Below, one piece after another: positions 28,860 to 47,019 of a DNA stretch of 64,000 nucleotides. A program made the position numbers and the translations under genes. How positions within the stretch are numbered: the stretch's first letter is position 1; every line of letters begins with the position of its first letter. Below the pieces are notes generated by a model, which saw only the letters and a list, made by a program, of their open reading frames with translations, was not told the DNA's origin and ran no database searches. Source of the stretch: a virus; the IMG/VR virus record IMGVR_UViG_3300020156_000448, positions 61,054 through 125,053 of that record. The stretch is one strand, 5' to 3'.

Positions 28860-29267
28860 TTAAACCTGAATAATTCCCTGGGATTCTAAGTCATCTGTTA
28901 TAACCGAAATAGAATCATCAACAGTAGGATAAATAGAAATAATAATACCAGTTCTTGTAATGCCTGCAATAATGGGTCTTGGCTCCATAAACACAGCATC
29001 AAAATGAACCTTTATACCGTCTTGCTCAAGAATATCAGTAGCGCAGATCAGCCCCTTCATTCCTTGCCAAGTTGGACCATGCAGAACACAATGCAATTCG
29101 CAGTATCCGAATTCTTTTATATTCCCCACGATAGTCTTTGCTAATCTCTTAGGCGGAGTGTCTGCGGCGACCATTAACTTGGGACTGTCGGGTTTGGTTC
29201 TTTTAAAACCTTCCTCATCAAGCTTTATAGTATCCAATTCGATGGTATTTTTCTTTATGTCTTCCAT
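28860..29267 (-). CDS. SpoVS-like protein
   Basis: 135 residues. After a 30-residue charged leader, the rest follows the SpoVS (Alba-like) pattern: KLMVAADTPPKRLAKTIVG, then EFGYCELHCVLHGPTWQGMK, then a helix and a GIKVHFDAVF strand. Length and order of strands and helices agree with Bacillus SpoVS, whose members bind nucleic acid and act in sporulation or development. Identity is low, so the call is by pattern. AGGTAAAT precedes the ATG. It may be a phage nucleic-acid-binding regulator. Confidence 0.55.
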   Translation of the reverse strand: MEDIKKNTIELDTIKLDEEGFKRTKPDSPKLMVAADTPPKRLAKTIVGNIKEFGYCELHCVLHGPTWQGMKGLICATDILEQDGIKVHFDAVFMEPRPIIAGITRTGIIISIYPTVDDSISVITDDLESQGIIQV

Positions 29268-29339: not shown

Positions 29340-30506
29340 TTATATATTCAAGTGGAGCTTTATCTCTTTGCAGCTTTTCAACTTACTTAACCAAAACTTA
29401 ACTTCGTCTTCTTCATAATTAAAAAATTTACTTAAATCAGCAGAAGTATATCCACTAAATACAAGAGGAAGAATGTTTTCGAAGAACTTAATTAAGCCTG
29501 CTTTATCCTTGGTATGCTTGAAAAACTTTCTCTTTCTGTACCCCAAATATTTAGAGTGCAATACTTCTGAGAATTTAGCCGAGTATTCCTTGCACATATC
29601 TGTTAAAGCTAGACTCATGCTCTCTGGAACAAAACAAGAAGTGTCTTCCCCGATATCAGAGATATAATATCCTTTCATCATTAGAGATGGCTGTCTTTTA
29701 TCTATGATGATATTTGCGTAATCCTCTCCAGTAGTAGCATCTACATCATAAATATAAATATTAGGAGAAGCAATATCAGCGTTAGGAAACATATGCCTAT
29801 AGGAGTTTACGATTACGGATTTAATTGCCGCTCTCTGTCTCGTACTATATTCATTGCCTTCCCAAGCAAACTTGCCTTTTTCAGCAGGCTCTTCCCAAGA
29901 GTCAAATTCTTCTTTGCCTATTTCGCCAATAATGTGATTATGAAGATGAGAATGTCCTGGAAATCCTGGCAGGGCTTTAGACTTATTTTGAAGCAAATGA
30001 ATTCGAGTAATTGCCCCAACGTATCTCCCGCAAAGTTGGCATTGAACGCCATTGGCTTTACTAGCTCTAGAGTTTTTTCTTTCAAAATCTTCAAATCTAC
30101 ACTTAACATTATTGGTTAAGTATGTATGAAACTTACTGTCTTCTCCATTATATGTCATTACAGATACAAAGAATCTGTGCAGAAGATCGGCATACATATC
30201 ATCGGTATCTTCAATATGAAAATTACAACATTGTTTATAAAGCCAATCTTCATATTTAAAGAACAACTCATTAAACTCTACTGTGTCAAAGCGACCTTTA
30301 TCAGTCACAAAGTTTTCAATAAACTTATTACATGTGGGACATTTGATCTTTAGTACTATTTTGCCTCTTGGGTCTTTTGGATGATCATCATACAGCATTT
30401 CATAATTACATACTGTGCACTGCCATTTTCCTCCTGACCTGTATTCTTCATACTGTTGCTTGACCTTAGCTATTAATTGTTTTTCATATACATTTTTTTT
30501 AGTCAT
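29340..30506 (-). CDS. sigma-like protein with zinc-binding cysteines
   Basis: 388 residues. The N-terminus has two cysteine pairs (CTVCNYE and CPTCNKF). Residues about 75-140 resemble sigma-70 region 2 (KYEDWLYKQCCNFHIEDTDD, ADLLHRFFVSVMTYNGEDSKF, TYLTNNVKCRFEDFERKNSR). A further CQLCGRYVG and a DNA-binding-like C-terminal helix pair (GLIKFFENILPLVFSGY, DLSKFFNYEEDEVKFWL) in the place of region 4 follow. It may be a divergent phage sigma or sigma-like regulator; the zinc pairs are unusual for sigma factors. It overlaps the nuclease gene by 8 bases. Confidence 0.5.
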   Translation of the reverse strand: MTKKNVYEKQLIAKVKQQYEEYRSGGKWQCTVCNYEMLYDDHPKDPRGKIVLKIKCPTCNKFIENFVTDKGRFDTVEFNELFFKYEDWLYKQCCNFHIEDTDDMYADLLHRFFVSVMTYNGEDSKFHTYLTNNVKCRFEDFERKNSRASKANGVQCQLCGRYVGAITRIHLLQNKSKALPGFPGHSHLHNHIIGEIGKEEFDSWEEPAEKGKFAWEGNEYSTRQRAAIKSVIVNSYRHMFPNADIASPNIYIYDVDATTGEDYANIIIDKRQPSLMMKGYYISDIGEDTSCFVPESMSLALTDMCKEYSAKFSEVLHSKYLGYRKRKFFKHTKDKAGLIKFFENILPLVFSGYTSADLSKFFNYEEDEVKFWLSKLKSCKEIKLHLNI

Positions 30507-31494
30507 CGTAATCTAACCTCTTGTCAATCTTAATATACAACTTGTTCATTCTTTCATCTCCACCCATCTCTTCATATTGTTCAGGAAAGCAATTGTGCAT
30601 AAAAGGGCAAGGTGGAAACTTTACGCTCCCTTGTGGGGCTGGGTAGCCTTGGCAGCTAAACTTCAAATCCCTATAACCGTAGGGTAATATTTCTGGAATC
30701 ATAGACTCAGGGATATCTGGAACAGTGCCTTCCCTATAACACTTAATTCCCAATGCTGCTCTTTTCTTAACTTCTTCAATGATTTCATTATCTTGAACAA
30801 GTAGAAATTCTTTAATTTCCATGCTGTTCTTATTTTCATAGAACAAGAAGGCGGCAGGCACACCTAAAATATACATGTAGATATTGACCTGAAACACATG
30901 AGCTTCCAATGGCTCATTTCTGCGATTAAGCTCATCATATACTGATTTACTGCATGTTTTAAAATCGATAACAAAAAGATTACCATTTAATGCCAAAACG
31001 CCATCAGTATGACCATGAAGTTCCATTTCTTCATCATCTACAGATAGCTCTTTATATTCAAAAATAGACTTAGGACCAGCAACAATATTTCCAACATCAT
31101 CAACTACGGCAGATGTCTTTTTAGCATTGTTGCAATTGGGACATTCAGAAGGCTTTAGTACGCCAATCTTTGAGTCGTTTCCGATTACAAATTCACAATT
31201 AGAGCAAATCCAACGACCATAAAGGAAGCCCATATCACCAAAATGGGATTGAAGTCTAGCATGAGTGCTATGACCATTTTCAAACGTTCTCTGCATCTTA
31301 GGAATTGTATAGAATTTGCCTTCATGCCCTAGACGCATTTTTACCGCTTTACGTATGCAGTAACCCATATCTGAGGGATGGAATTTTCTATACGATCTAA
31401 ACTGAGAATTAACATGATCGTGGGTCAACCAATCATCATACTTCTTGGTTATCACGTCAGTTACTCTCACATTTTTATAAATATCAAGGCTCAT
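30499..31494 (-). CDS. PD-(D/E)XK nuclease of RecB/Cas4 type with zinc ribbon
   Basis: 331 residues. Catalytic core: H and D in LHGHTDGVLAL, D and K in FVIDFKTCS, and Q and Y in HVFQVNIYMYI, matching RecB-type nuclease motifs (including motif III Q-x-x-x-Y). A zinc-ribbon insertion occurs earlier (CSNCEF, then CPNCNN), and the C-terminal part has CPFMHNCFPEQY, consistent with a Cas4/AddB-like metal cluster. It probably processes DNA ends for recombination with RecA. It ends 4 bases from the TOPRIM gene start side and shares the leftward block. Confidence 0.8.
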   Translation of the reverse strand: MSLDIYKNVRVTDVITKKYDDWLTHDHVNSQFRSYRKFHPSDMGYCIRKAVKMRLGHEGKFYTIPKMQRTFENGHSTHARLQSHFGDMGFLYGRWICSNCEFVIGNDSKIGVLKPSECPNCNNAKKTSAVVDDVGNIVAGPKSIFEYKELSVDDEEMELHGHTDGVLALNGNLFVIDFKTCSKSVYDELNRRNEPLEAHVFQVNIYMYILGVPAAFLFYENKNSMEIKEFLLVQDNEIIEEVKKRAALGIKCYREGTVPDIPESMIPEILPYGYRDLKFSCQGYPAPQGSVKFPPCPFMHNCFPEQYEEMGGDERMNKLYIKIDKRLDYDD

Positions 31495-31495
31495 T

Positions 31496-32311
31496 TTAAT
31501 TCGTCACTTTCAACAAAGAACTTAATCTTTGTCTTTGTCTTTCTTCGAAGCTGGTGCTTTTATCCTTTAAAATTTGATCAATTCTGTCTTTTATTGGTTG
31601 TGCGCCGTATTGCATTACAAATTGATGAGGATCGTATCCATCTGGTAATAAAACATAATCGGAGTCAAAAGTTATGTCATGTTTTGCCCTATTTAAAAAC
31701 TTCAGTCCGGCTGAATCATGATCAAAAAGAAAGATTGCCAGATCACAATATCTCAATAATTTATTAACGTGATGTTCAGTAAGTGCTGATCCCAGTACTC
31801 CCACGACATTTTTAATACCGTGCTGGTATAAAATAGCAACGTCAAATTGACCTTCCGCTATGATTACATAGTTTTCTTTGATGATGTGCTTTTTAGCCAC
31901 GTTAAGTCCGAATAAGAAGCTACTCTTAATAAATGAGCTATGAAGTTTGGATTTATGATAGTCTTTCTTTTCAGAACCGTCTGCCGACCTCCAAGAAACA
32001 ATTCTGTTTGTCTCTGTTTCTAGAACGTATTTATTACCTATTGCGTCTTGGTAATCATAAGTTATCATTCTTCCAGAAAGAGCCACAGGAACATTGTATT
32101 CATCTATGAGAGGAAATATAATCCTGCGCTCCCATCTCTTATCCTTATAACCGTCTTCTCCTGTAATAGGACCAAGACACCATCCCACTCTATAATCTGA
32201 GATGGTGTCTTGACTAATACCGCGAGAAGCTAGATAATCTCTTGCTACTAAGCCATCTTCCGACTGAAGTTGATATTGAAAAGATTCAACTAATTTAGCA
32301 AGATTTTCCAT
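31496..32311 (-). CDS. dnaG: DnaG-type primase catalytic (TOPRIM) subunit
   Basis: 271 residues equal to the RNA polymerase core of DnaG but without the N-terminal CHC2 zinc domain or C-terminal helicase-binding domain. The core pattern is clear: ARDYLASRGISQDTISDYRV, RRIIFPLIDEYNVPVALSGR, E153 in VIIAEGQFDV, and D197/D199 in FLFDHDSAGLKF, the TOPRIM acids. The missing zinc finger is encoded about 9 kb away, fused to a glycosylase domain (41596-42759), so the phage primase appears to be split. Lies 3 bases from recA. Confidence 0.88.
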   Translation of the reverse strand: MENLAKLVESFQYQLQSEDGLVARDYLASRGISQDTISDYRVGWCLGPITGEDGYKDKRWERRIIFPLIDEYNVPVALSGRMITYDYQDAIGNKYVLETETNRIVSWRSADGSEKKDYHKSKLHSSFIKSSFLFGLNVAKKHIIKENYVIIAEGQFDVAILYQHGIKNVVGVLGSALTEHHVNKLLRYCDLAIFLFDHDSAGLKFLNRAKHDITFDSDYVLLPDGYDPHQFVMQYGAQPIKDRIDQILKDKSTSFEERQRQRLSSLLKVTN

Positions 32312-32314
32312 TTA

Positions 32315-33520
32315 CTATTCTTCAATTCCTAGAAGTCTATTTCTTTCTTTTTCAATAATTACTTCCAGCTTATCCATAGAAAATGTCTCTGGAAGCAATT
32401 CTTCTTTAAGCTCTTGTGCAGCTTGCATCAGAAAGATACGACTTGCCATTTCGCCAACTAAGTCACCAAGGGTTGCTTGCTTAACAAAGTCTTCAAATGA
32501 TGGATAAGTCAGTTTATCATCATCTAATGTCTTGTAGATGATTTCACCCTTATATATTCTCCAAATACCAGCTTTTTTAGCTTTCCCTATTACTTCCATA
32601 ATCATATCAGGATCATCGAAGTACAACTCAAACACGCCTGCTCTCATTGGGGGTGCGAATTTATTTTTGATAAACTTTACAACTACATATTGACCAATAA
32701 CATTTTCTTGAGTATCGTATATATTGTAAGATTTTTCTTTTTCGTCGTAATGCTTACGAACGTCACAGCGAACCTGAGCAAAGAACTTAAGTGCACGTCC
32801 GCCTGGAGTATCGTCAGGGTTAGCAAACTTAGAAGCATTCATCTTGGTTCTTAACTGATTAATCAACACTACCGCTGTCTGGAATTGGCGGCAAAGTGGA
32901 GCCAATTTAGAAAGTGCACGTGTCAGAAGTTTAGCAATAGGAGCATAGTTCTGATCTTCTAAGCTGGATTCCATTTCAACCTTAGGCTGCAAGGCGGCTA
33001 CGGAGTCGATAACCACAATAGAGATTAAACCTTGCTTGATAAGCTCATATATCTTTTCAAATAGGTCTTCTCCCATACAAGGCTCAATCTTAATTAATTG
33101 TGCCGTATCGATACCAATTTTTTGCATGCGCTCATTGGTTGTTCCACCTTCCAAGTCGCAATACACTGCGTACTTATCAGGAAATACTCTTTGCGCCATT
33201 GCTACCAAGCGCTGAGCCATATAAGATTTACCAGAGCTTTCTGGACCATACAATTCGATGATAGCATTATTAGGATAACCTCCAATGCCTGCCGCTGTAT
33301 CCACCATTGGGAATCCACTTGGGATTGGAACAGTAGGATACCAACTTTCATCTGCAAAGCCAGCGCCTACACCAACCATTTCTTCATCTTTGTATGCTGT
33401 GTTTAATTTGGATAATACCTTCTTAATTTTTGCTTCTGTAGCTTTATCCTTAGAAGGTACAGGATCGCTAACTGAAAAAGAGGAGCCAGGAAGACCTGGC
33501 TCCTTATTAATATTTGTCAT
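32315..33520 (-). CDS. recA: RecA recombinase
   Basis: 401 residues, within RecA range, with a longer N-terminal extension (about 40 residues). Motifs: Walker A GPESSGKS (92-99), DLEGGTTNERMQKIG, the Walker B strand IVVIDSVAAL, QLRTKMNASKF near loop L2 and TPGGRALKFFA. Catalyses strand exchange on single-stranded DNA; in phages it drives recombination-dependent replication with UvsW-like helicase and SSB. The start ATG at 33520 has GAGGT upstream. Codons 6-14 form a 10-bp hairpin followed by CTTTTTC (33481-33504), which looks like an intrinsic terminator within the coding region. Confidence 0.9.
   Translation of the reverse strand: MTNINKEPGLPGSSFSVSDPVPSKDKATEAKIKKVLSKLNTAYKDEEMVGVGAGFADESWYPTVPIPSGFPMVDTAAGIGGYPNNAIIELYGPESSGKSYMAQRLVAMAQRVFPDKYAVYCDLEGGTTNERMQKIGIDTAQLIKIEPCMGEDLFEKIYELIKQGLISIVVIDSVAALQPKVEMESSLEDQNYAPIAKLLTRALSKLAPLCRQFQTAVVLINQLRTKMNASKFANPDDTPGGRALKFFAQVRCDVRKHYDEKEKSYNIYDTQENVIGQYVVVKFIKNKFAPPMRAGVFELYFDDPDMIMEVIGKAKKAGIWRIYKGEIIYKTLDDDKLTYPSFEDFVKQATLGDLVGEMASRIFLMQAAQELKEELLPETFSMDKLEVIIEKERNRLLGIEE
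33481..33504. repeat. 10-bp terminator-like hairpin in recA codons 6-14
   Basis: AGGAGCCAGG, four-base loop, CCTGGCTCCT, followed on the gene strand by CTTTTTC. Confidence 0.85.
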
Positions 33521-34640: not shown

Positions 34641-34722
34641 TTTGTTGTCCTCCGTATGTTTAACTATATGATTTACGTTATTTAACACTCTTTGAGTGAA
34701 ACGTTCGAAACATATATACAAT

Positions 34723-35899: not shown

Positions 35900-36181
35900 T
35901 TAATCCTCGTCTTTTGCTTCCATTGGGAATATTAAGATATTACCCTTGTGACCATCTCTAATTAAATGATCTATTAAATTTGCTTCACATTTCATCATAA
36001 CTGATGCATGATCTGTTGCTCTGATTGGATTAGAACTAGGGACAGCATCTAAGTAGATAAAAGCCCAGCCATTTTCATCTCTCTTTATATCTTCCTTATT
36101 TCCTCTGATCTTAAATCCAAATTTCTCTGAGTGTGAATTGGCGTATTTTAGCGTCAATTTCATCAATTCATCGTCTGTCAT
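35900..36181 (-). CDS. hypothetical protein (93 aa)
   Basis: Mixed alpha/beta with KFGFKIRGNKEDIKRDENGW and a final acidic tail. Its ATG overlaps the stop of the DnaE C-terminal gene, implying coupling. Unknown function. Confidence 0.5.
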   Translation of the reverse strand: MTDDELMKLTLKYANSHSEKFGFKIRGNKEDIKRDENGWAFIYLDAVPSSNPIRATDHASVMMKCEANLIDHLIRDGHKGNILIFPMEAKDED

Positions 36182-38082
36182 TAAAATACACCTTTTAATC
36201 TTGGAATGGTCTTATTTTTAGATGGACCTTTACCCATTCTATCCTTAATACCTTGGCATCTAATGAACTCTGATTTTAATTCTGGTTCGCTCCCAAAGCA
36301 ATTAAGTGCGCCTGCGTTAATAAGACATTCCACAACACTCTTAGAGACTTTATTACTAGTTGTTGCTCCAAGATAAAAATCTTGAAATGTATTATACGGC
36401 TGATTGGCACAAATTTCTCTCTGTGCTTCAGTGCCCACACCTTTAATACAACTTAAAGGCTTGCGAATTTTATCATCTTCGATAGTGTATACATTTTTGC
36501 TATGATTAATATCAACAGGAAGAAACTTGATGTTAAAATATCTTGTAGCTTCGCGCTCATAATACTCTAAGTTTTCATCACAGTCTGCACCACCGCTATT
36601 TAATTCCACAGTTAACAACGCGCTATAGAACTCTCTAGGAAACAAAGCTTTAAGAAATGCAGTTGCATAAGCCAAATAAGCATAAGCCGCTGAGTGAGCC
36701 TTATTAAAGCAATAATTACCAAACTTCTCAAACTGATCCCAAAGGTTCGACACTTCCGCATCTCCCATGAGACCTGTTTCTTTAGCTCTTGCCCTGAACT
36801 TAGCCGCCATTTCAGGAAGTTTTTTAACGTCCTTTTTACCAATAATTTTTCTGAATTCATCGGCTTCTGTCTTGGTAAATCCAGCCAGAATTTGACACGT
36901 CTTCATTAACTGTTCCTGATAAATAAACAATCCTAATGTGCTCTTTAGAATATCATATAGAGCAGGATGAGGATAATTAATAGCACTTGCATTACTCTTT
37001 CTTTCAATAAAGAAGTTATGATAGCCGTTTGCTAGCGGTCCTGGTCTATAAAGAGCCACACCAGCTACTAAATCATCAAAGCATGTGGGCTGTAATTCCA
37101 TAAGGAACTTTGTAAAACCATATTTTTCAAACTGAAAAATACCTTTTGTAATTCCCTTGGCAATTAGATTAATAACACTAGGCGCAGTCTGTGTATCAAA
37201 AGGATTGAGATTCCAAATATCTATATCCTTGCCGTGACGCGCCTTAATCATATTAAGAGCCATATGAACAACCCTAAGCGTCTTTACGCCAAGAGTATCC
37301 ATCTTCATACATCCAAGCTCTTCACAGTCATGCATATCGAATTGTGTGATATAAATAACTTTCTTGGTGTCTTCTTCTTTCGAAAAGTGAAGAGGAATTA
37401 ATTCGGCAATTGGCTCGTCGGTAATAATAATTCCGCCTGCGTGCTTGCCTGTACTGGCTTTAATGCCAAATATCTTCTTAGCATCTACAAGAATGTTATC
37501 TAATTCAGGATGGGCTTGGCGATATGCGGCAAAATTAGCCTCATTAATAGCAGCGTCAAAGTCTTCGTTTAATCTGGTATCTACCAGCTTGGATAAGAAT
37601 ATAGCTGTATCAGAAATACTCATCACTTCACCATTTTCTGAGGGAAGCTGAAGACCATGATACTTAGATGCGTTTTGAAGAGCACCTTTTACTTTCCAGT
37701 TGCCAAATGTACCAATTGGAGCAACGTGATCAGCCCCGTATTTTTGAGTAATATATGCCTGAACTGGAGTAATGTCTTCAAAGTCAGTATCAATATCAGG
37801 AGGACTATATCTTACAAGATAATAATCATCTCTTAAATTAAGAGGTTTATCAAAATCACAACATACATCTGTTACTCCTATTAAATAGGACAAATAACAA
37901 TTAGCTTTATTAACACTGCCTTTAAAGTTTTGATTTACTAGCTTTCCTAGCGTCCTATAAAGACTCGGATGCTGCTCAAAGAAGTCCATCTCCTCACGCA
38001 GTCTCATCATTTCGACTGAATTCGGGTCAGTGTTGGCTAATCTTGTTCTATCTATCAGACTAAATAATTTTTGTCTATCCAT
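36181..38082 (-). CDS. dnaE: DNA polymerase III alpha, C-terminal half (palm acids, fingers, HhH)
   Basis: 633 residues that carry the second part of DnaE: the catalytic acids in YSPPDIDTDFED (D96, D98, D100), then VAPIGTFGNWKVKGALQN, KHAGGIIITDEP, ECEE-like CEELGCMKMDTLGVKTL, GIFQFEKYGF, VALYRPGPL, the fingers region IYQEQLMKTCQILAGF, and HhH VECLINAGALNCFG. It stops before the OB and tau-binding domains. The N-terminal half (PHP and the GRGSGAGSL loop) is the separate gene 38720-40057. The first 95 residues are an extension. The two polypeptides must assemble. AGGTGC precedes the ATG. Confidence 0.88.
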   Translation of the reverse strand: MDRQKLFSLIDRTRLANTDPNSVEMMRLREEMDFFEQHPSLYRTLGKLVNQNFKGSVNKANCYLSYLIGVTDVCCDFDKPLNLRDDYYLVRYSPPDIDTDFEDITPVQAYITQKYGADHVAPIGTFGNWKVKGALQNASKYHGLQLPSENGEVMSISDTAIFLSKLVDTRLNEDFDAAINEANFAAYRQAHPELDNILVDAKKIFGIKASTGKHAGGIIITDEPIAELIPLHFSKEEDTKKVIYITQFDMHDCEELGCMKMDTLGVKTLRVVHMALNMIKARHGKDIDIWNLNPFDTQTAPSVINLIAKGITKGIFQFEKYGFTKFLMELQPTCFDDLVAGVALYRPGPLANGYHNFFIERKSNASAINYPHPALYDILKSTLGLFIYQEQLMKTCQILAGFTKTEADEFRKIIGKKDVKKLPEMAAKFRARAKETGLMGDAEVSNLWDQFEKFGNYCFNKAHSAAYAYLAYATAFLKALFPREFYSALLTVELNSGGADCDENLEYYEREATRYFNIKFLPVDINHSKNVYTIEDDKIRKPLSCIKGVGTEAQREICANQPYNTFQDFYLGATTSNKVSKSVVECLINAGALNCFGSEPELKSEFIRCQGIKDRMGKGPSKNKTIPRLKGVF

Positions 38083-38092
38083 TTATATGCAC

Positions 38093-38557
38093 CTAAAACT
38101 CCGTAGGCGGTAACGCCTTAACTTCTTCTTCTTTTTCTTCTAGTTTAACTAGGTTTAAGCCAATAGTTTTTGCTGCTTCTAACACTTTTTCGTCCACGCG
38201 ATAAGCATTTCTAAAAAACACTGTCTTAATTCCAGAGTTAGCTATTAATTTAAAACATCCGTAGCAAGGAAATGCTGTTACGTACATTTCGGCACCTTCT
38301 ATTTTGACGCCATTACGAGCGGCTTGAATTAAACTATTTGCTTCTGCATGGACAGTGCGGACGCAGTGCCCATCAACCATTTGGTGATCCGCATCATCGC
38401 AATGGGGCGTGCCTTTTATGCTACCATTATAGCCTGTAGATAAAATAGTTTTATCTCTTACAACCACAGCGCCAACATGAAGACGGTTACAGGTTGCTCT
38501 GGTGGAAACCTGTTCGGCAATCTGCATAAAATATTCATTCCAAGAAACTCTAGACAT
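38093..38557 (-). CDS. dCMP deaminase
   Basis: 154 residues with the zinc site intact: HAEANSLIQAARN (H and catalytic E) and PCYGCFKLI (two cysteines), preceded by VGAVVVRDKTILSTGYNGSI and CDDADHQ typical of ComEB/T4 Cd-type dCMP deaminases. Produces dUMP for ThyX. GGAG lies nine bases before the ATG. Sits between the two halves of DnaE, with a 57-aa gene. Confidence 0.9.
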   Translation of the reverse strand: MSRVSWNEYFMQIAEQVSTRATCNRLHVGAVVVRDKTILSTGYNGSIKGTPHCDDADHQMVDGHCVRTVHAEANSLIQAARNGVKIEGAEMYVTAFPCYGCFKLIANSGIKTVFFRNAYRVDEKVLEAAKTIGLNLVKLEEKEEEVKALPPTEF

Positions 38558-38723
38558 TCAAATTTACTCCAAAAAATTTCATAACTTTTCTTATCGAAAT
38601 TTGAATTCTATAAGAAAATGAACGTTTTCTTTCATCCTCTTCAATTTGATCCAGAATCCTCTGATAAGCAGTGGCGCGGCTTCCTGGAAGAGTGAATTCG
38701 GGAATAATAATTATTGGCTTCAT
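38550..38723 (-). CDS. small hypothetical protein (57 aa) between DnaE halves
   Basis: Starts at the ATG of an ATGA overlap with the stop of the DnaE N-terminal half and ends with a TAG inside the dCMP deaminase start. Sequence begins MKPIIIIPEFTLPGSRATAY and continues as a basic helical stretch (QISIRKVMKFFG). The tight stop/start overlaps at both ends support it as a translated gene. No cysteine, membrane segment or similarity to intein ends is seen. Function unknown. Confidence 0.6.
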   Translation of the reverse strand: MKPIIIIPEFTLPGSRATAYQRILDQIEEDERKRSFSYRIQISIRKVMKFFGVNLNV

Positions 38724-40057
38724 TCTACAAAGTCTCTCTCTTCCAAAACAAAGCCTTTTTCAGCAGCTAAGAAGCGCTCAAAGTCCAAGTCATACAAAAT
38801 AGGATCGATATTAGTAATACCTAGGCAAAACAGCATTAAAGAGCCTGCACCAGAACCTCTTCCTGGTCCCACAAAGATGTTATTTTTCCAAGCCCACTGT
38901 ATATAATCTCTAACCACAATAAAGTATTTGGAAAACTCTGTCTTTGTTACAACAGATAGCTCGTAAGTTAATCTATCCTTATATCTTTGGTCATTGTGGT
39001 ATCCCTTTTGAATGAGACCTTTCCACGATAAGAATGTGAGATACTGACCGTTCTTGTCCAAATGTCCAATAGTAGCTTTCCACGCATCCCTAAATTTACA
39101 GAATGCTTCGTAATCATCTTGGGTCTCTAGGTCAAAGTTAGGCAAGCGAGCTTTTGCTCTTGCTCCCAAGGGAATATCTACATTACACTTTTCTGCAATC
39201 GCCATAGTTTCTTCAATTGCAAATTGCAAACCCCCGAAGGTGGAATAGATTTCATCTGGAGTCTTTAAATAAAACTCGTTAAAATCACCATCCCTGCCTT
39301 CATTATTGTTGGCTGTGGTTAGGTCTTTACCAAACTGGCGAGCCTTCTTAATCTGCTGAGCCTGAAAGTCATCCTTACAGATATAGTGAGTGTCGTTTGT
39401 TAGCACCGAGCGTATACCAAGCTCTTGAGAAAGTCTAATGGTATTTTCCAGCACCATGCGCTGCTTTACGGCAAAATCACCTTGACCGCCTTGCAGGACG
39501 CCTTGGTTGTCCATAGCATGAAACATTAACTCTAGGTAATAATCGTCCTTGAAACGTTCTTTATATTTAGAGGCAACCATTTTAGCCATATTATAGCCTT
39601 CGTTGCCCTGATGTTTCAAGAATGATTCCGCTATTTCTCCCTTAATGCAGGCAGAACTAACAATGAGACCATCGCCATATTTATCCAACAAATCAAAGTC
39701 TAGGCGTGGTCGCGCATAATAGCGCTCTTGCTCATAGGATACTGTGGCAAGTTTTTTAAGATTCTTCCAACCTTGATCATTTTTTGCTATTAATAGCAAA
39801 TGGTTATTCGATCTCGAAGATTTATCGAGAGAATTATTGCACACATAAGCTTCCATGCCCAAGATAGGTTTAATACCTTCTTCTTGGCAAGCTTTATAGA
39901 ATTTAATCGAACCAGATAGCGTTCCATGGTCTGTTAATGCCAAAGCTGGCATACCCATGTTTTTCGCTGTTTTTACAAAATCTTTAATTTTACACAATCC
40001 GTCAATCAATGAATATTCGGAATGATTGTGTAATGAAACGTACATCTTATCTGACAT
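38720..40057 (-). CDS. dnaE: DNA polymerase III alpha, N-terminal half (PHP and start of palm)
   Basis: 445 residues. The PHP metal motifs HNHSEYSLIDG and ALTDHGTLSG are near the N-terminus, followed by PILGMEAYV, LTNDTHYI, DTHYICKDD and the palm start FVGPGRGSGAGSL. The protein ends soon after YDLDFERFL, just before the region carrying the catalytic acids, which is in the other half (36181-38082). In Escherichia coli this break point is between GRGSGAGSL and PDFDVDF. Together the two genes form one alpha subunit without the C-terminal OB part. AAGGTG precedes the ATG. Confidence 0.88.
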   Translation of the reverse strand: MSDKMYVSLHNHSEYSLIDGLCKIKDFVKTAKNMGMPALALTDHGTLSGSIKFYKACQEEGIKPILGMEAYVCNNSLDKSSRSNNHLLLIAKNDQGWKNLKKLATVSYEQERYYARPRLDFDLLDKYGDGLIVSSACIKGEIAESFLKHQGNEGYNMAKMVASKYKERFKDDYYLELMFHAMDNQGVLQGGQGDFAVKQRMVLENTIRLSQELGIRSVLTNDTHYICKDDFQAQQIKKARQFGKDLTTANNNEGRDGDFNEFYLKTPDEIYSTFGGLQFAIEETMAIAEKCNVDIPLGARAKARLPNFDLETQDDYEAFCKFRDAWKATIGHLDKNGQYLTFLSWKGLIQKGYHNDQRYKDRLTYELSVVTKTEFSKYFIVVRDYIQWAWKNNIFVGPGRGSGAGSLMLFCLGITNIDPILYDLDFERFLAAEKGFVLEERDFVE

Positions 40058-40070
40058 TTGTCACCTTGCA

Positions 40071-40099
40071 TTATATAAAGGTGGGGATTTCTCCCCACC
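40071..40099 (-). terminator. intrinsic terminator
   Basis: On the minus strand, an 8-bp G+C-rich stem (GGTGGGGA with TCCCCACC) and four-base loop is followed by TTTATATAA. It lies 13 bases beyond the stop of the deformylase-like gene and before the DnaE N-terminal gene. Confidence 0.8.
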
Positions 40100-40111
40100 C
40101 ATCTTTATTTA

Positions 40112-40726
40112 TTAGATCACTAGATTGGGCTTGTCAGTAGGCTCTGGATTCTTACCAACCTCATGGAGAGTTTTGCCGTGGATATGATCGTATAGATGAT
40201 GGATTACAATTGCACCCAAATCTGTAAATCTCTTCTCTCTCGTCTTGCCTTCCATGTCCTTATATGTAACTTTAATAACCAAACAACGCTTAGTCTTAAA
40301 GCTCAAATTAGGAATTGAAGGACAAGATTCCACTACTTCTCTTGTATACTTTGATGGTTTAATTTCTTTAATAGAGGGATTAACCATTAAAGTGGATTTA
40401 GGCTTGGTAGCAAGTAGAAACATTTGTAAGTCATGACCTACCTGCTGGGCTGAAACTCCGTAAGATTCACGCATGGCTAAATACTGTTCCATTTTACGCA
40501 AACAAATATCTGCTTCAGCCATATTTCCAGATGTTACGCGACGACCTTTAGTGGTCATGATCGGATCATCGTATTCTACAATTAACTTGGTTTCAAATGT
40601 CATTGATTCTGTAAGATCAATTTCTGAATCAATAACACTGGACAAATTCGCTAATGAGGAACCACTTGGCAAAATTGCATGATGATGGTGATCACAACCC
40701 TCTGAACAAGAGTGCGTATCGCTCAT
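40112..40726 (-). CDS. peptide deformylase-like protein lacking the catalytic glutamate
   Basis: 204 residues. The three deformylase motifs can be aligned: motif 1 YGVSAQQ (for GxGLAAxQ), motif 2 ESCPS with C135 (for EGCLS), motif 3 HHLYDHIHG, which aligns with QHEIDHLNG so that H177 and H181 remain while the catalytic Glu becomes L178. Metal ligands are therefore retained but the general base is missing. The N-terminus has an unusual metal-like cluster (HSCSEGCDHHHH). Phages often carry active deformylase; this one may be inactive or have a changed role. Start has AAGGA upstream. Confidence 0.7.
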   Translation of the reverse strand: MSDTHSCSEGCDHHHHAILPSGSSLANLSSVIDSEIDLTESMTFETKLIVEYDDPIMTTKGRRVTSGNMAEADICLRKMEQYLAMRESYGVSAQQVGHDLQMFLLATKPKSTLMVNPSIKEIKPSKYTREVVESCPSIPNLSFKTKRCLVIKVTYKDMEGKTREKRFTDLGAIVIHHLYDHIHGKTLHEVGKNPEPTDKPNLVI

Positions 40727-40735
40727 AATATTTCC

Positions 40736-41536
40736 TTATTCTTTGTATTTCTCGTCATCATGGTTGGAAACACCTGCTATAAAACTAGAAGCTTTATAAC
40801 TGAACATTGTAAGATGAGGGGATGCTAAAAGGAATCCAAAAATTACTCTCTCGTCTTTAATCTCGTGTGTGGACGTGTATTTTTGTGAAAATCTACTGCT
40901 ATCGGGATCGATAGATAGTTGAAATTCAAGCATCTGAAGATTAAGTTCATCTTTTGTAGGAGCAAAGAAAGTCTTTATAATCATTGGACTCAAATCTCTG
41001 CCCTTATTTGGTTTTAGAATTACGGCTCCAATATGGGCGGGACCAGCAAAATTACGAAGTCCATAACCACTCACATTGTTTCCCTTTCGAAAATGATACT
41101 GTTTTACAAGTTCATTTCCAATATTGAAAGCCTCATCTAAAATTGCCGAACCGTCACTATTTCTATTTAATTCCATAGGTGGAATTGTTTTCAAGAATCC
41201 TGGAGTGGATATAAATCCATTCTCTGTTATATAAGTATAATCAAAATCTGAATAGGTGTCTGTTGAGATAAACAGATCGATTGGGTCTAAACCCACTATT
41301 TTATTATAACCTACTTCTTGAGAATAGAATGAAGACGGACCAACGTAAAGTGATTCGTTCGTTTTCCAACTTATATTGGTTTCATCAATGCCAGTTAATT
41401 GATCTAATTTATGAAGCGGAACACCATTATTCATCAATAACCCTGCGCTACCACCGTCAGCTACCCTATGAAATACAGGAATAACCATAAATGGGAACGT
41501 AGCCCTGTGTTCAACTAAATTAATTATCTCTGCCAT
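40736..41536 (-). CDS. hypothetical protein (266 aa)
   Basis: A soluble alpha/beta protein without cysteines, beginning MAEIINLVEHRATFPFMVIP. It contains YGLRNFAGPAHIGAVILKP and a C-terminal KDERVIFGFLLASPHLTMF. No known motif. It lies between the deformylase-like and primase-finger/UDG genes. Function unknown. Confidence 0.5.
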   Translation of the reverse strand: MAEIINLVEHRATFPFMVIPVFHRVADGGSAGLLMNNGVPLHKLDQLTGIDETNISWKTNESLYVGPSSFYSQEVGYNKIVGLDPIDLFISTDTYSDFDYTYITENGFISTPGFLKTIPPMELNRNSDGSAILDEAFNIGNELVKQYHFRKGNNVSGYGLRNFAGPAHIGAVILKPNKGRDLSPMIIKTFFAPTKDELNLQMLEFQLSIDPDSSRFSQKYTSTHEIKDERVIFGFLLASPHLTMFSYKASSFIAGVSNHDDEKYKE

Positions 41537-41595
41537 TAAATCTACCTACGAAAGTCTTTATTTGTTATATACATGAGAAGAGACTTTATTCTAAT

Positions 41596-42759
41596 TTATT
41601 GGTAGCATCGACAATGTTTGTAGATAAAATCACTTAGCATGCTATTAAATGAATCTTTATCTTCAGAAGGACTATGGCTAAAATAAACCAAAGCCTCGTG
41701 TTTCCCAATTTTGTGTGGTCTATTTCTCCCGACAAAGCTGGCACAATCTATGTTTTCATTTTCGATGAAGTATTTAATGGTCTGTGATCCAATTAGCATA
41801 ATTGCATCAGGTTTTAGAATTTCAATCCGCTTATTAAGCCATTTGTTTTTACAAAGAATAGCCTCTTTGAATGGATTATTTTGATTGGAATAACAATTAA
41901 ATATATAATCTATCCAAACATTTTCTTTTTCAATGCCTGACTTGGAAAGATAGTCAATTAACTCTTCCCTGCCTTTGCCTCCCATCCCCAAAGCATCTTC
42001 TTCTGAGAGCGGAGAATCAAGCACAAACATAACATTAGATACATGGCTACCAAAGCCCGTTACTACACTCTTGCATCCGTAACGAAGACTACAATCGGTA
42101 CATGTTTTATTATCTAATCGAAGCTCTTCTATAGTCTTTTTTTTCTCATCCAAAGCTGATTCCAGAGTCTTGATGCTGGGCAATATTTCATTTTTAATTC
42201 TAGAAAGTTGCCTTTGATCCTGATCTACAATCGCTTGATCTAATACTTGATATATACGCCCTATCATGGCATCGATCTTAGGGGAGTTAAATTTTCTAGA
42301 AATTCTTTTTCCCTCAACCGAAACTAGATAATTAATATTGTTAGCATCAGGTTCACTATAGTCGTTAAGACACAAGGTTCTCAAAAAATCTTCGTATGCC
42401 ATTTCTGACAAAGAGACATTTGAAATGTCGTTTTTTAATCCTAATTTTGCTGCAAAAAAACCTACAGCTTGACCCCACGTGCTAAAGCCTTTATACTCTT
42501 TGGCAAATGCAATTACATCCCCGCCTCTATGACACTGACCAAAACAATACCAAGATTGGTCATATGTATAAACACGAAAACTAGGAGTGTTTTCTTTATG
42601 AAGCGGACAGCAGCAAGAGAGCATTTCTGCTCCAGACTTATATCCCGCACTAGATAAATGAACACCTTCTTGTTGAAGAAAGTCTACAAGCGAAACGCGC
42701 TTGCGGATTTCGTCCGCAAGCCGTTTCGCCTCTATGTAGTGAAGTTTATTTTCCTGCAT
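41596..42759 (-). CDS. CHC2 primase zinc finger fused to UDG family 4-like domain
   Basis: 387 residues. Residues 10-105 are the DnaG zinc-binding domain: IRKRVSLVDFLQQEGVHL, then C51-P-L-H54 with KENTPSF, C72 and C76 in YCFGQCHRGGDVIAF. A 100-residue helical linker follows. Residues 215-385 resemble family 4 (Fe-S) uracil-DNA glycosylases: C220/C223 (CTDC), motif A MFVLDSPLSEEDALG, C289 (IFNCYSNQNNP), C303 (AILCKNKWL), DAIMLIGSQTIKYFI, and H362 in FSHSPSED. The four cysteines occur where family 4 Fe-S ligands lie. Primase TOPRIM is the separate gene 31496-32311. Overlaps dnaB by 14 bases. Codons 11-23 form a 17-bp bulged hairpin. Confidence 0.82.
   Translation of the reverse strand: MQENKLHYIEAKRLADEIRKRVSLVDFLQQEGVHLSSAGYKSGAEMLSCCCPLHKENTPSFRVYTYDQSWYCFGQCHRGGDVIAFAKEYKGFSTWGQAVGFFAAKLGLKNDISNVSLSEMAYEDFLRTLCLNDYSEPDANNINYLVSVEGKRISRKFNSPKIDAMIGRIYQVLDQAIVDQDQRQLSRIKNEILPSIKTLESALDEKKKTIEELRLDNKTCTDCSLRYGCKSVVTGFGSHVSNVMFVLDSPLSEEDALGMGGKGREELIDYLSKSGIEKENVWIDYIFNCYSNQNNPFKEAILCKNKWLNKRIEILKPDAIMLIGSQTIKYFIENENIDCASFVGRNRPHKIGKHEALVYFSHSPSEDKDSFNSMLSDFIYKHCRCYQ
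42690..42729. repeat. 17-bp hairpin with single bulge in the primase-finger/UDG gene
   Basis: Arms 42690-42707 and 42713-42729 pair over 8+9 bp with one unpaired C at 42698 and a five-base loop; codons 11-23. Confidence 0.9.
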
Positions 42760-44395
42760 TTATTGAGCCATCTAAATTAATGAGAGCATCTAAGTTTAAA
42801 GAGTTTACGTTATTCTGAGCAATATCGGAATAAATTCCTTCTCTGTCAGCCGCCAAGACAGGAACTTCCGCCTCACCGCCTATACGGGCAGCGCCTCTTC
42901 CAGCGTTCCACGGAACCATAATTGTATCTCCATTGTTTTGCCGCACTGGAGAACCCTGCATATTTGCAGCTTCGTCAGCAATGCCGCCAATGGGAGCAAA
43001 TCCAACAGTATTTTGTGGGTCTTCAAACTTACACAAGTCTCCAAGGAATATTAAATCAACTCTCCAGTCCTTAGAACCGTTTCTCTGTTTTACCAATCCA
43101 ATAGTAACACTGTTTGAATCATCTGGGTTAATCTTAATCGTGATAACCGCATCAGCATCCTGACCTGGCTGGTTAGAGCCTTCGAGGTTTTCTAGTCCCA
43201 ATTCAGTTTCCTTTTTGTTTCTAACCCATCTTACAGAGTTTCTATTAGCCTGAGCCAATAGAATAGCAGCATGATCCCAGCGCTTTGCCAAATCACGGAT
43301 TTCCTTAGCAATATCTCCTAGGTCCGTGCTTCTATTATCTCTTCTAACGTTTGGGGGTTTAATAAGCCCAAGGTGATCCCAAATAATAATATCTGGTGGG
43401 TCATTCTTGTAGTGCTTCTCTAGCTTGGCTTCGATTTGAGATACTGTAAATTTACCTGCCTGAACTTCGATGACTCTAAAGTAAGAACCATCTCCACCAT
43501 CTTTTTTTCTAGACTTTAAGCGGTTTCTCCACTCATCGATCTTAGCAATATCTACATCTTTTAATTCGCCGTTAATCCATGCGTTATGCGAAATACCGCA
43601 TTCAGCAGAAGCGATCTTGCGCATAAAATCTTCACGGGATTCTTCGCATGAGATCACCAATATTTTGGCTTTATACTGAAGCTGAATTTTCCTAGCTACA
43701 CATCTAGCAAATGAGGTTTTACCAGAAGAAGACATACCCATAATGATGGACATTTTCTTCTTTTCAAAACCATTAAACTTCTTATCAATGATGCCATATC
43801 CAGTTTTGTATCCTGTATACATGTCTGGATTTTCTTTTCTGCGTACAGCATCATCAAATATTAAATCCACACCATCGTCTTCAAGATCAGACATCTTGTA
43901 AGACTCTTCTTCTGCGTATACTTCTTCAATTCTATGGAGCTTATGAAGAAGAGATGTGTAGGCATCCTTAATATCAGCGCCTTTAATATCTTCATTGTAT
44001 TTTCTATAAGCTTCAAGAATACTATACCCAGCCACAGTATGTTGCCACTGCTCGAACTTAACTGGAAAATCATCTTCTTGATATTCATAAGAAAGAAGAT
44101 TATCATAGAATTCTTCGTATGGAGCTATTAAGGGATTATTAATTCCTTGAAGTCTGAATGAAGTTATGATGCGCTCAATAAATTGAGCTTTTGTAATAAC
44201 AGCATCATGCTTCTCAAAGCACTCTACAACTCTTCTGAAAAAAAGTTGACAGTCTTCATTGAGAAACCAGTTTGGGTCTACTCCACGGTCTAGCGTGTAG
44301 CGAATATATTTTTTATCTTTAATCAAAAATGAGAGAATAACTAATTCTAACTCATTCTCAACTACTGATATTTGATCTAATTGTCCTATTGACAT
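42746..44395 (-). CDS. dnaB: replicative DNA helicase DnaB
   Basis: 549 residues. The N-terminal helical domain (1-150) precedes the RecA-like motor: Walker A GMSSSGKTSFAR (220-231), VISCEESREDFMRKIASAE, Walker B DIIIWDHLGL, AILLAQANR and ENLEGSNQPGQDADAVI, the motifs H1-H4 of DnaB. It unwinds DNA ahead of the fork. The loader-like gene lies immediately downstream in coordinates, i.e. upstream in transcription (44411-45193), and the zinc-finger/UDG primase subunit overlaps its end. AGGAGC precedes the ATG. Confidence 0.92.
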   Translation of the reverse strand: MSIGQLDQISVVENELELVILSFLIKDKKYIRYTLDRGVDPNWFLNEDCQLFFRRVVECFEKHDAVITKAQFIERIITSFRLQGINNPLIAPYEEFYDNLLSYEYQEDDFPVKFEQWQHTVAGYSILEAYRKYNEDIKGADIKDAYTSLLHKLHRIEEVYAEEESYKMSDLEDDGVDLIFDDAVRRKENPDMYTGYKTGYGIIDKKFNGFEKKKMSIIMGMSSSGKTSFARCVARKIQLQYKAKILVISCEESREDFMRKIASAECGISHNAWINGELKDVDIAKIDEWRNRLKSRKKDGGDGSYFRVIEVQAGKFTVSQIEAKLEKHYKNDPPDIIIWDHLGLIKPPNVRRDNRSTDLGDIAKEIRDLAKRWDHAAILLAQANRNSVRWVRNKKETELGLENLEGSNQPGQDADAVITIKINPDDSNSVTIGLVKQRNGSKDWRVDLIFLGDLCKFEDPQNTVGFAPIGGIADEAANMQGSPVRQNNGDTIMVPWNAGRGAARIGGEAEVPVLAADREGIYSDIAQNNVNSLNLDALINLDGSINAGK

Positions 44396-44410
44396 TAATT
44401 GCTCCTAATT

Positions 44411-45193
44411 TTATGAGAGATAACGGTATTCTTGCTGGAAGACTTGTAATAAAAAGTCTAATTCAGCCGCCGTGTAATTGGGCTTATCGTTTCTCTTCTG
44501 CTTTAGGAACGCGACGAGAGCATCGATATTATAAGTAATATCTGCTCTATTATCCTGCTCGTGAATAATCTCACAGGAAATTATAAACTCATCGAAATAA
44601 CTAATTAAAGATTCAGAATACTGGGTAGATAAAACCCTTGGGTCTACGTAGGCAGAAAATATCGTTGGCTTATTTTCTTTTCTTCTCTCTAAAACCACAT
44701 CCGCAAACCCATTGCAGACTTTGCTTGTTCTTAAGCATTTTGGAGAAACGCTATCAAGCATAAGAAAATCTACATTATGGTAGCGCTCTCTTACTTCAGC
44801 GTCACCATCCCAATCTAAATTCTCACAAAAAGTTGGAAAGCTTTCAAACATAGCTGTGTAACCGTATTCGATAGCTGCCCTCAGAATCAAAGTTCCAAGA
44901 AGACTCATTCCAAGCTTTTGGTTAGGCAGACCGTAAAGATATATGCCTTTGCCGCTCTCTCTATTTTTATGTATATTCAAAATATATTGGCGCGTCGTTT
45001 GAAGCGCGTTTTCTTTAGAAGGATTAACTTTGCCTCGAAGTGTGGCAACGTTATAGAATTTTGTTCCTTCTTTTCCCGTGAGGGAATAATCTAAAAATTC
45101 TGGCGGAATACCAGAACTTTTAATTTTGTTTTTGACATTTTCGTGATATACCTTTTGCAGATACTCTTTATAATTGTCGTCCAAGTTTTCCAT
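44411..45193 (-). CDS. DnaC-like helicase loader with degenerate P-loop
   Basis: 260 residues arranged like DnaC/DnaI loaders: N-terminal helical part, the strand IYLYGLPNQKLGMSLLG where Walker A should be, then AIEYGYTAMFES, FLMLDSVSPK for Walker B, and SYFDEFIISCEI near the end. The Walker A lysine is replaced (position of GK[ST] reads GMS) and the second Walker B acid is Ser. It therefore probably loads DnaB without ATP hydrolysis or by binding only. Position directly before dnaB supports this. AGGAG precedes the ATG. Confidence 0.65.
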   Translation of the reverse strand: MENLDDNYKEYLQKVYHENVKNKIKSSGIPPEFLDYSLTGKEGTKFYNVATLRGKVNPSKENALQTTRQYILNIHKNRESGKGIYLYGLPNQKLGMSLLGTLILRAAIEYGYTAMFESFPTFCENLDWDGDAEVRERYHNVDFLMLDSVSPKCLRTSKVCNGFADVVLERRKENKPTIFSAYVDPRVLSTQYSESLISYFDEFIISCEIIHEQDNRADITYNIDALVAFLKQKRNDKPNYTAAELDFLLQVFQQEYRYLS

Positions 45194-45205
45194 ATTGGAA
45201 ACTCC

Positions 45206-46162
45206 TTAAAATTCTTTCTTTTTGGACTTAAACACTTTTAAGCAATTGGCGTAATTTCTTTTAACTGTAGCCGTATCTCTCCACCATGGCTGTTCAGTAT
45301 ACTTAAAGAATTCAATCGCCTTTCTAAGGGCAGATTCACGCCAATTAATAGCCTTCCATGGGTATGGCTCCCACGCTATGGATGATTTAATGATTCTTTC
45401 AAATCTAGGTGCAGCAGAAACAGGGCTGCGTGAGGTATCTTCTCTGATAACTACGTCCACCTTGTTTAAAATAAGTCTAGAGATAGAATCAATCTCCATG
45501 CCTTCTTGAACTTCCAAGTAATATGCTACCATTGGAATTCCAAACTGCATGAGCAGTCTTACATTAAAATCAACAACTTGCTTATCATCATTTCTTTCCA
45601 TGTAATTACGGAAGGCAATGCGTAAGTCTTTTGGGTCAATGACCAGATCGCGGCTTGGAATTCTGCTTGTCGAATCAGCAATCTTCTTTACCGAGATCAC
45701 ATTCATATAATACTCTTTTAAATCTTCTTTTAGAGAAGAAGACAAATAAATCTGTCCTGTTGATTTAGCCCAAGGCATTCTTGTTTTTGCAGCCCAGTCA
45801 ATAAAATCAACAATTTCAGAATTAGACATTTCTAATTCTTGTCTGCCACAAGTTAAAATAGCTCCAAATGCTTGATTATCAAGTCTAATTTTACCTGGGT
45901 ACATATGCCCATATACTTTTCTAAACATGCGAGCAAAGTGACATCTGTAGTGAAGTGCATTCCAAGCATCTACAGGAAGACTCATATCAAGAGTAGCATC
46001 TCCACCACTTGCCCATACCTGCTGCTGCACTTCAGAAATCTTAGGAGGAGCTTCAGTATGCTTTTCATTACCATCGCTACTAGCAACAGGTTTAGGTGTT
46101 ATAGATATCTGCATTGCCACTTGAAAAGGATCAAAGGGTTTTTGATCAGTAGTTGCACTCAT
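45206..46162 (-). CDS. hypothetical replication-associated protein (318 aa)
   Basis: First gene of the leftward operon, just before the DnaC-like and DnaB genes, so probably expressed early with replication functions. A polar N-terminus (1-55) precedes a helical domain with ARMFRKVYGHMYPGKIRLD and later SALRKAIEFFKYTEQPWWRD. Its size and helical content would suit an initiator or loader partner of the DnaD/phage O type, but no motif proves it. CGGAGAAATG lies at the start. Confidence 0.5.
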   Translation of the reverse strand: MSATTDQKPFDPFQVAMQISITPKPVASSDGNEKHTEAPPKISEVQQQVWASGGDATLDMSLPVDAWNALHYRCHFARMFRKVYGHMYPGKIRLDNQAFGAILTCGRQELEMSNSEIVDFIDWAAKTRMPWAKSTGQIYLSSSLKEDLKEYYMNVISVKKIADSTSRIPSRDLVIDPKDLRIAFRNYMERNDDKQVVDFNVRLLMQFGIPMVAYYLEVQEGMEIDSISRLILNKVDVVIREDTSRSPVSAAPRFERIIKSSIAWEPYPWKAINWRESALRKAIEFFKYTEQPWWRDTATVKRNYANCLKVFKSKKKEF

Positions 46163-46274
46163 TCATTTCTCCGTTATATCAAGACGTTATAGTTATGTTT
46201 TCTTAGCTGCTAAGATTTAAGCCTCTAAAGAAAATTTTTGATTTTTCAATCACTTTGATTTTACTCAACTTGAA

Positions 46275-46314
46275 TGATAATAAAAGGGGAAAGAAGGTTT
46301 AAAACTTCTCTCCC
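46275..46314 (-). terminator. intrinsic terminator-like hairpin, minus strand
   Basis: A 10-bp stem (GGGAGAGAAG with CTTCTTTCCC, one G-U) then CTTTTATTAT on the minus strand. It lies upstream of the leftward operon, so it would end a transcript made inside the intergenic region rather than a known gene. Confidence 0.55.
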
Positions 46315-46802
46315 TCTTTGTTTATGGGGGGGTTTCATACAGCTTAATAATAAGGCATTGATTTACGGCTTTGTAGCAATTCTGTGCGATACAGCAAATC
46401 AACTCACTTGTTAGGTCAGCTATTTCGTATACTTGGATTTGTTAGCATTTATTCAATATCACGTATACATCATTTTTCTTTATATTGTTTGTTTTGAAGA
46501 ATGATTTTAAAACTTGTGTATAAAAATTTGAACTTGTTTTGAAGACCTGTTTGAAGAGTGATCAATCTAAGTTCGAAGCGTTTCAGAAAATTCCTCGTTC
46601 CCTTCGCTCCGCTCAGTCACTTCGGGCGTGACCATCTTTCGCTTCGCTCAAGTGGTCCTTTAACTCGCTGCGACTGCGCTACGCTTGTCTTTGCTCGTCG
46701 TACTGCCTTGTAAGGCTTTTACACCCCCTTCCCCCCTTGTTAGGGGGCTTATTAATTCGAAAGATTTTATGTTGTTACTTTTTCGTTTATATTATAATAT
46801 AT

Positions 46803-46825
46803 ATAAAAAGACGCTGAGCAGCGTC
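46803..46825 (-). terminator. intrinsic terminator-like hairpin, minus strand
   Basis: GACGCT, loop GCTC, AGCGTC followed by TTTTTATAT on the minus strand. It would stop leftward transcription entering the intergenic region from the rightward gene's promoter zone. Confidence 0.6.
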
Positions 46826-46922
46826 CAATTCAAAACGAACACTGCACAGTGTAGAAACTAATGTTTGAAACTCTGTTGTCTAGAAAATCAAAATGTTTTA
46901 ATTGGATTCCTTTAATAGCATT

Positions 46923-46943
46923 TTATACACAGGCTGTGAATAA
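46923..46943. promoter_or_regulatory. inverted pair of DnaA-box-like sequences
   Basis: TTATACACA and, after three bases, TGTGAATAA (TTATTCACA on the other strand). Both fit TTWTNCACA, face each other and form an imperfect palindrome. A third such word is at 46515-46523. Confidence 0.45.
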
Positions 46944-46968
46944 ACAATTAACTCAAGTGATAAGGGAG

Positions 46969-46993
46969 ATATACACATGCGAAAGGTGTATAT
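46969..46993 (+). promoter_or_regulatory. ATATACAC/GTGTATAT inverted repeat before the metallophosphoesterase
   Basis: An 8-bp inverted repeat with nine-base spacer, 27 bases before the start at 47020. It could be an operator or a promoter element for the rightward unit. A short frame of seven codons with AAGGGAG upstream starts inside it. Confidence 0.4.
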
Positions 46994-47019
46994 AAATTAA
47001 TACTGGCTCAGGAGAGCAT

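Follow-up and report, generated by a model that had tools for sequence, protein, structure and literature searches.

DnaG zinc-binding domains are required for template binding by the catalytic core of the primase (PMC5429622), and that paper also cites work on primase subunits that regulate primer synthesis in trans. Some phage proteins carry a CHC2 finger without TOPRIM in the same chain (PHROG 360, PHROG 18097), and these have no uracil-DNA glycosylase (UDG)-like domain. UDG-like domains are found on other replication enzymes of phages. They form the N-terminus of PolA in Lysinibacillus phage LysYB1, Pseudomonas phage PMBT14, Serratia phage Serbin and seven IMG/VR loci, and one phage polymerase with such a domain, the SPO1-type PolA of phiLo, has been solved (9qhs). 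They form the C-terminus of DnaE in Rhizobium, Pseudomonas (nickie) and Stenotrophomonas phages. In vaccinia virus, the UDG D4 (vvUNG) is itself a replication component (PMC10253040); it is an active family 1 enzyme without an Fe-S cluster and acts as a processivity factor for a family B polymerase. A UDG-like domain on phage replication proteins is, in general, already known; its fusion to a primase zinc finger was described in none of the phage records and papers that we searched.

The window (the whole stretch of DNA analysed, the final 64 kb of an IMG/VR virus record of 125,053 bp) contains an open reading frame of 387 codons that begins with ATG and has no internal stop. It starts inside the last codons of a DnaB-like helicase gene, with an overlap of 14 bp, and its product joins a primase zinc finger to a UDG-like domain:

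41596..42759, minus strand: CHC2-UDG fusion gene, 387 amino acids (CHC2 at residues 13-111, mostly helical linker at about 112-205, putative Fe-S pseudo-UDG at 206-387)
42427..42723, minus strand: CHC2 zinc finger, residues 13-111 (ligands C51, H54, C72 and C76), the only CHC2 domain of the record
41599..42144, minus strand: putative Fe-S pseudo-UDG domain, residues 206-387 (Cys ligands 220, 223, 289 and 303; D248, Y285 and S363 altered, Phe deleted), the only UDG domain of the record

Both domains scored above the curated cut-offs of Pfam: CHC2 (PF01807, residues 13-111) with 61.4 bits against 24.9 (E 7.2e-17), and UDG (PF03167, residues 240-365) with 26.2 bits against 24.3 (E 9.5e-6). A search of the whole 125-kb record returned a single match for each domain, UDG and CHC2, and both lie within the 387-aa product. 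Among solved structures, the N-terminus matched DnaG primases (phmmer). No Rfam element was found at positions 38000-47000. An earlier note, made from the sequence of the window, had described the protein as a CHC2 domain joined to a family 4-like Fe-S UDG; Pfam, the solved structure 1ui0 and a structure model all agree with these identities, and the zinc and cluster residues listed in that note are the right ones.

Employing phmmer against solved structures, we matched residues 209-336 to the family 4 (UDGa) enzyme of Thermus thermophilus (1ui0, E 1.2e-14). In an AlphaFold2 model based on an alignment of UDGs from viral loci, the UDG half (residues ~200-380) had a pLDDT of about 90. The best PDB matches of this half in Foldseek were family 4 UDGs (Thermotoga maritima TM0511, 1l9g, E 8.6e-14, TM 0.79 on target), followed by UDGX. 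Because the rows of these alignments were UDGs, the models of this fusion and of a second one (see below) cannot count as independent of the homology call, which they support but do not prove; the Pfam and 1ui0 matches are independent of the model. CHC2-only sequences, which misaligned into the UDG region, were excluded from the structure alignments, and the CHC2 half was poorly modelled because few rows cover it. C220, C223, C289 and C303 were invariant in alignments of 19 and 17 members and in the second fusion. From their conservation, an Fe-S cluster likely assembles on these four residues. The domain therefore shares fold, cluster cysteines and sequence homology with family 4 UDGs, as the earlier note had supposed, and neither an unrelated fold nor a missing Fe-S site was encountered.

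The active site is a different matter. Catalytic positions were read from alignments with canonical UDGs and from a profile of canonical sequences only, and the two agreed. Motif 1, GE(A/G)PG with the catalytic Glu (GEGPG in family 4), is absent; the fusion reads LDSPL, with D248 at the Glu position. The PFVG loop is short by two residues, and the stacking Phe (F65 in UDGX) falls in the deletion. The uracil-binding Asn of motif 3 (ITN; N80 in T. thermophilus, N91 in UDGX) is replaced by Y285 (IDY). The motif-2 His (HP) column is occupied by S363 in every alignment. The HSPSED loop listed in the earlier note is present, but its His, H362, lies one residue before the catalytic column. Hallmarks of UDGX were likewise absent from the alignments, which contained neither an R-loop insertion with the cross-linking His nor GEQPG. 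In UDGX, F65A and N91A each left no detectable activity and E52A strongly reduced it (PMC10776899). Because every catalytic position tested is altered and single substitutions inactivate UDGX, a uracil scanner or repair enzyme is unlikely, and uracil excision by the fusion is probably absent. The Asp in place of the motif 1 Glu had been noted earlier with the remark that activity may be altered; the Asp is there, but the remark understates the change, in that Phe, Asn and the motif-2 His are lost as well. By the same evidence, the suggestion in that note that the protein couples uracil scanning or base-excision repair to priming is not supported. Judged from the residues present, Asp at motif 1 and the nearby H362 leave some room for unusual chemistry.

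The genes around the fusion belong to a replication module:

44411..45193, minus strand: DnaC-like helicase loader, weak match (PHROG 50, 6.4e-6)
42746..44395, minus strand: DnaB-like replicative helicase (Pfam DnaB_C 1.9e-33; PHROG 19, 7e-59)
38720..40057, minus strand: DnaE-like polymerase, PHP half (PHROG 405 positions 41-437, 2e-115)
38093-38557: dCMP/cytidine deaminase (Pfam 3e-26), between the two polymerase halves
36181..38082, minus strand: DnaE-like polymerase, catalytic half (PHROG 405 positions 439-944, 1e-140)
33534-34721: possible SSB
32315..33520, minus strand: RecA/UvsX-like recombinase (Pfam RecA 3.6e-56), directly before the TOPRIM gene
31496..32311, minus strand: TOPRIM catalytic core of the split primase, 271 amino acids (Pfam Toprim_4 1.2e-12, DNAG_N 2e-12; PHROG 6444, DNA primase, 3e-39)
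30499..31494, minus strand: Cas4/PDDEXK-type exonuclease (PHROG 1706, 7e-31)
28860-29267: SpoVS-like gene (Pfam 4e-8)

The separate TOPRIM gene named in the earlier note was confirmed by its Pfam matches, with DNAG_N first and Toprim after it, and no zinc finger was found in its 271-aa product. Since the lone CHC2 domain lies in the fusion and the TOPRIM gene has no zinc finger, the primase is split into finger and catalytic core. As in DnaG, both CHC2 finger (E 7e-17) and TOPRIM core are encoded in the phage genome; in contrast to DnaG, they occupy two genes, and a UDG-like domain is attached to the finger. A C-terminal helicase-binding domain, of a kind that is hard to detect, gave a Pfam match in neither the fusion nor the TOPRIM protein. 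Each half of the split DnaE has its own version of one palm segment (Moorella DnaE 408-443), and both halves end without a UDG match; the single UDG domain of the record sits on the primase finger, not on the polymerase. Other genes of the window encode a peptide deformylase (40112-40726, Pfam 3e-26), an ADP-ribosylglycohydrolase-like protein (16644-17444, PHROG 6572, 2.5e-42) and a large ATP-dependent (Clp-like) protease (13823-16345, PHROG 4871, 7e-221).

The same fusion was found in a second virus. Whole records of distant DnaE relatives from IMG/VR were searched with the fusion protein, and one of them, a 140-kb uncultured virus (IMGVR_UViG_3300031576_001126, hereafter L064), gave a match over residues 7-334 in one open frame, with 30% identity and E 3.5e-22 (26% in a separate BLAST). 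The frame encodes 394 amino acids, or 387 from an in-frame ATG. Its CHC2 domain has an E-value of 5.6e-12, and its UDG half alone matches 1ui0 at 2.3e-7; the Pfam UDG model alone gave no match to it. The model of its UDG half matches family 4 UDGs, with the CHC2 half again poorly modelled. The two fusions share the four cysteines and a D-S-P motif (motif 1 is WDSPH in L064), whereas the Asn position differs, being Y285 in the window and Thr in L064. That cysteines and D-S-P are kept while catalytic positions differ points to selection on fold and cluster rather than on catalysis.

The window (minus strand) and L064 share nine collinear genes, with 24-37% identity, in the order helicase, fusion, PHP half of DnaE, catalytic half of DnaE, RecA, TOPRIM, Cas4-like nuclease, a 388-aa gene and the SpoVS-like gene that ends the block. 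DnaE is split at the same site in both. Where the window has the DnaC-like loader, L064 has an ORF in which a P-loop-type motif was recognised by eye. Neither record encodes a CHC2 protein other than the fusion, and in each the TOPRIM gene follows right after recA. The unusual primase architecture pointed out in the earlier note was therefore borne out and recurs in a second, divergent virus.

UDG-like domains at other phage replisomes form a mixed set, in which the catalytic motifs are kept in some and lost in others, and the change of Glu to Asp recurs. In uncultured viruses, we found large frames with a UDG match beside or behind DnaE; by coordinates, L067, L068, L087, L101 and L123 have the UDG match behind the DnaE match and in frame with it. 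Compared with the fusion, SPO1-type PolA proteins likewise bear a UDG fold on a replication protein, sometimes in degenerate form (E to D and N to G in the Lysinibacillus phage PolA), but their partner is a polymerase and some of their domains have canonical motifs. DnaE proteins with a C-terminal UDG-like domain (Rhizobium phage B1VFA, Pseudomonas phage nickie, several uncultured viruses; PHROG 4335) are similar to the fusion in having a pseudo-UDG on a replisome enzyme, Asp at motif 1 (ADAPG, LDGP) and altered Asn and His; they differ in that the Rhizobium members have no Fe-S cysteines and the domains form a separate clade.

PHROG 4335 combines the tail of DnaE with a UDG region and matches both the fusion and the DnaE-like protein of the window, which raised the idea that the UDG domain had been relocated from a DnaE C-terminus. 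In the tree, DnaE-fused UDG domains formed a clade of their own (100/100), and the domain of the fusion grouped with that of L040 (95/93, both on long branches). Since this position is outside the DnaE-fused clade, the relocation was rejected and no transfer from DnaE is claimed. In L040:2935-8389, the gene between a CHC2 primase-helicase and DNA polymerase A encodes a stand-alone UDG with degenerate motifs (E to D, N to Y, H to N). In a 126-kb virus (L016:4110-9802), a canonical family 4 UDG gene lies between two DnaE halves, the second of which has an apparent intein (by eye). In Bacillus phage KLEB27-3 (L059:1556-3486), only 2 bp separate a DNA primase gene from the UDG gene behind it. Primase and UDG are thus neighbours there too, but they are unfused, the UDG has canonical motifs and a single primase chain contains both finger and TOPRIM.

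For further fusions, IMG/VR was searched by means of short patterns; the searches also covered GenBank phages, plasmids and GTDB genomes. No relatives were returned by single-sequence scans of IMG/VR with the fusion, the helicase and RecA or by scans of GTDB genomes with the fusion, so that these sets contain no close relative of the phage. When UDG alignments served as queries, UDGs and fusions to polymerases were returned, but none to a primase; among plasmids, no fusion spanned most of the protein. The fusion of L064 was reached solely by way of the DnaE relatives, and a third fusion was found neither in a repeat scan with both fusions nor among the remaining DnaE relatives. GenBank phage matches to the UDG half labelled 'human fecal samples' look like bacterial genes and were not counted as phage fusions. 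A 459-kb virus (L061:5881-6555) encodes a stand-alone 224-aa CHC2 protein with an extension after the finger and, like the PHROG proteins mentioned above, without a UDG-like domain; its gene lies directly before ORFs resembling SbcD/SbcC (by eye). A 'VWVDY' match in the same virus was due to chance and lies in an unrelated ORF resembling a dNMP kinase. In the annotated phage records and literature searched, a coverage that is partial and leaves room for an earlier mention, no CHC2-UDG fusion was present.

We propose, with a probability of about 0.6, that the fusion recognises the template as one subunit of a split DnaG-type primase, in which the finger would act in trans on the TOPRIM core and the Fe-S pseudo-UDG half would serve as a DNA or replisome tether. 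Because the fusion is the sole CHC2 protein of each record and a separate TOPRIM gene follows recA, the finger would have to serve that core; given the precedent of DnaG, such action in trans is likely. The other half would be a family 4 UDG fold that has kept its Fe-S cysteines, lost the residues for uracil excision and been repurposed for binding to DNA or the replisome. It may bind DNA non-specifically or make contact with helicase, SSB or polymerase, thereby holding the finger at the fork by the DnaB-like helicase and taking the place of a helicase-binding domain, which seems to be missing from the TOPRIM protein. This tether role is plausible by comparison with known systems: vaccinia UNG provides a precedent for a UDG serving as processivity factor (PMC10253040), and degenerate UDG domains recur at phage replisomes, on DnaE C-termini, on PolA N-termini and as the stand-alone protein of L040. 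Against it, a partner, helicase-binding or otherwise, could be encoded by a gene that was not recognised. A Fe-S domain of the large subunit of archaeal and eukaryotic primases has been proposed to act as a redox or structural switch. As a more speculative extension, which we consider rather improbable, a viral primase of the TOPRIM type may independently have gained an Fe-S DNA-binding subunit from a dead UDG, so that the fusion would be a regulatory subunit parallel to the Fe-S domain of PriL and would set primer start or hand-off to the split DnaE.

Other readings of the UDG half were weighed against the tether. A role of the Fe-S domain mainly as a switch, redox or structural, that regulates the primase is unlikely, even though all four cluster cysteines are retained despite the lost catalysis, the domain lies on a primase chain and redox activity has been reported for the clusters of family 4 UDGs (PMC9266487); the DnaE-fused UDG of Rhizobium phages has no such cysteines, which indicates that replisome use of the fold needs no cluster. 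It is quite unlikely that the domain is still a DNA glycosylase, perhaps with a changed specificity, for a modified base or for single-stranded fork DNA, and with priming coupled to base excision. The acidic D248, the kept E254 and D255 and a His beside the motif-2 position would fit such an enzyme, the deaminase gene between the polymerase halves shows that dUMP metabolism is active in the phage, and polymerase-fused UDG domains of four loci (L017, L019, L022 and L023) have canonical motifs. However, Phe, Asn and His are all lost where loss of Phe or Asn alone inactivates UDGX (PMC10776899), and the further difference of L064 at the Asn position means that no substitute active site is conserved.

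An inactivated UDG centre near a dCMP deaminase gene might also be a non-cutting sensor or decoy for uracil or modified bases, which stalls priming on damaged template or shields phage DNA from host glycosylases; bacterial glycosylases do act in anti-phage defence, according to PMC11078745. Specific uracil binding, however, should go with the stacking Phe and the uracil-bonding Asn, and nothing links the fusion protein to defence, so we hold this to be very unlikely. Because the source is one metagenomic virus record, we also considered that the fusion arose as an artefact of assembly or frameshift, or that the gene is decaying. The single open frame and the translational overlap with the helicase gene speak against it; the same fusion and synteny in a divergent virus exclude an assembly chimera and indicate that the arrangement is selected. 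An artefact is thus almost certainly not the explanation.

Dead or dying UDG folds recur on phage replication enzymes, namely PolA, DnaE and now a primase subunit, and no account of their role was found. The fusion provides a clean case, with a natural isolated primase finger joined to an Fe-S pseudo-glycosylase, the core on another chain, and the arrangement kept in two divergent viruses. It opens the question whether a DnaG-type zinc finger works in trans as a subunit of its own, and the question what a glycosylase fold gives the replisome once it no longer cuts.
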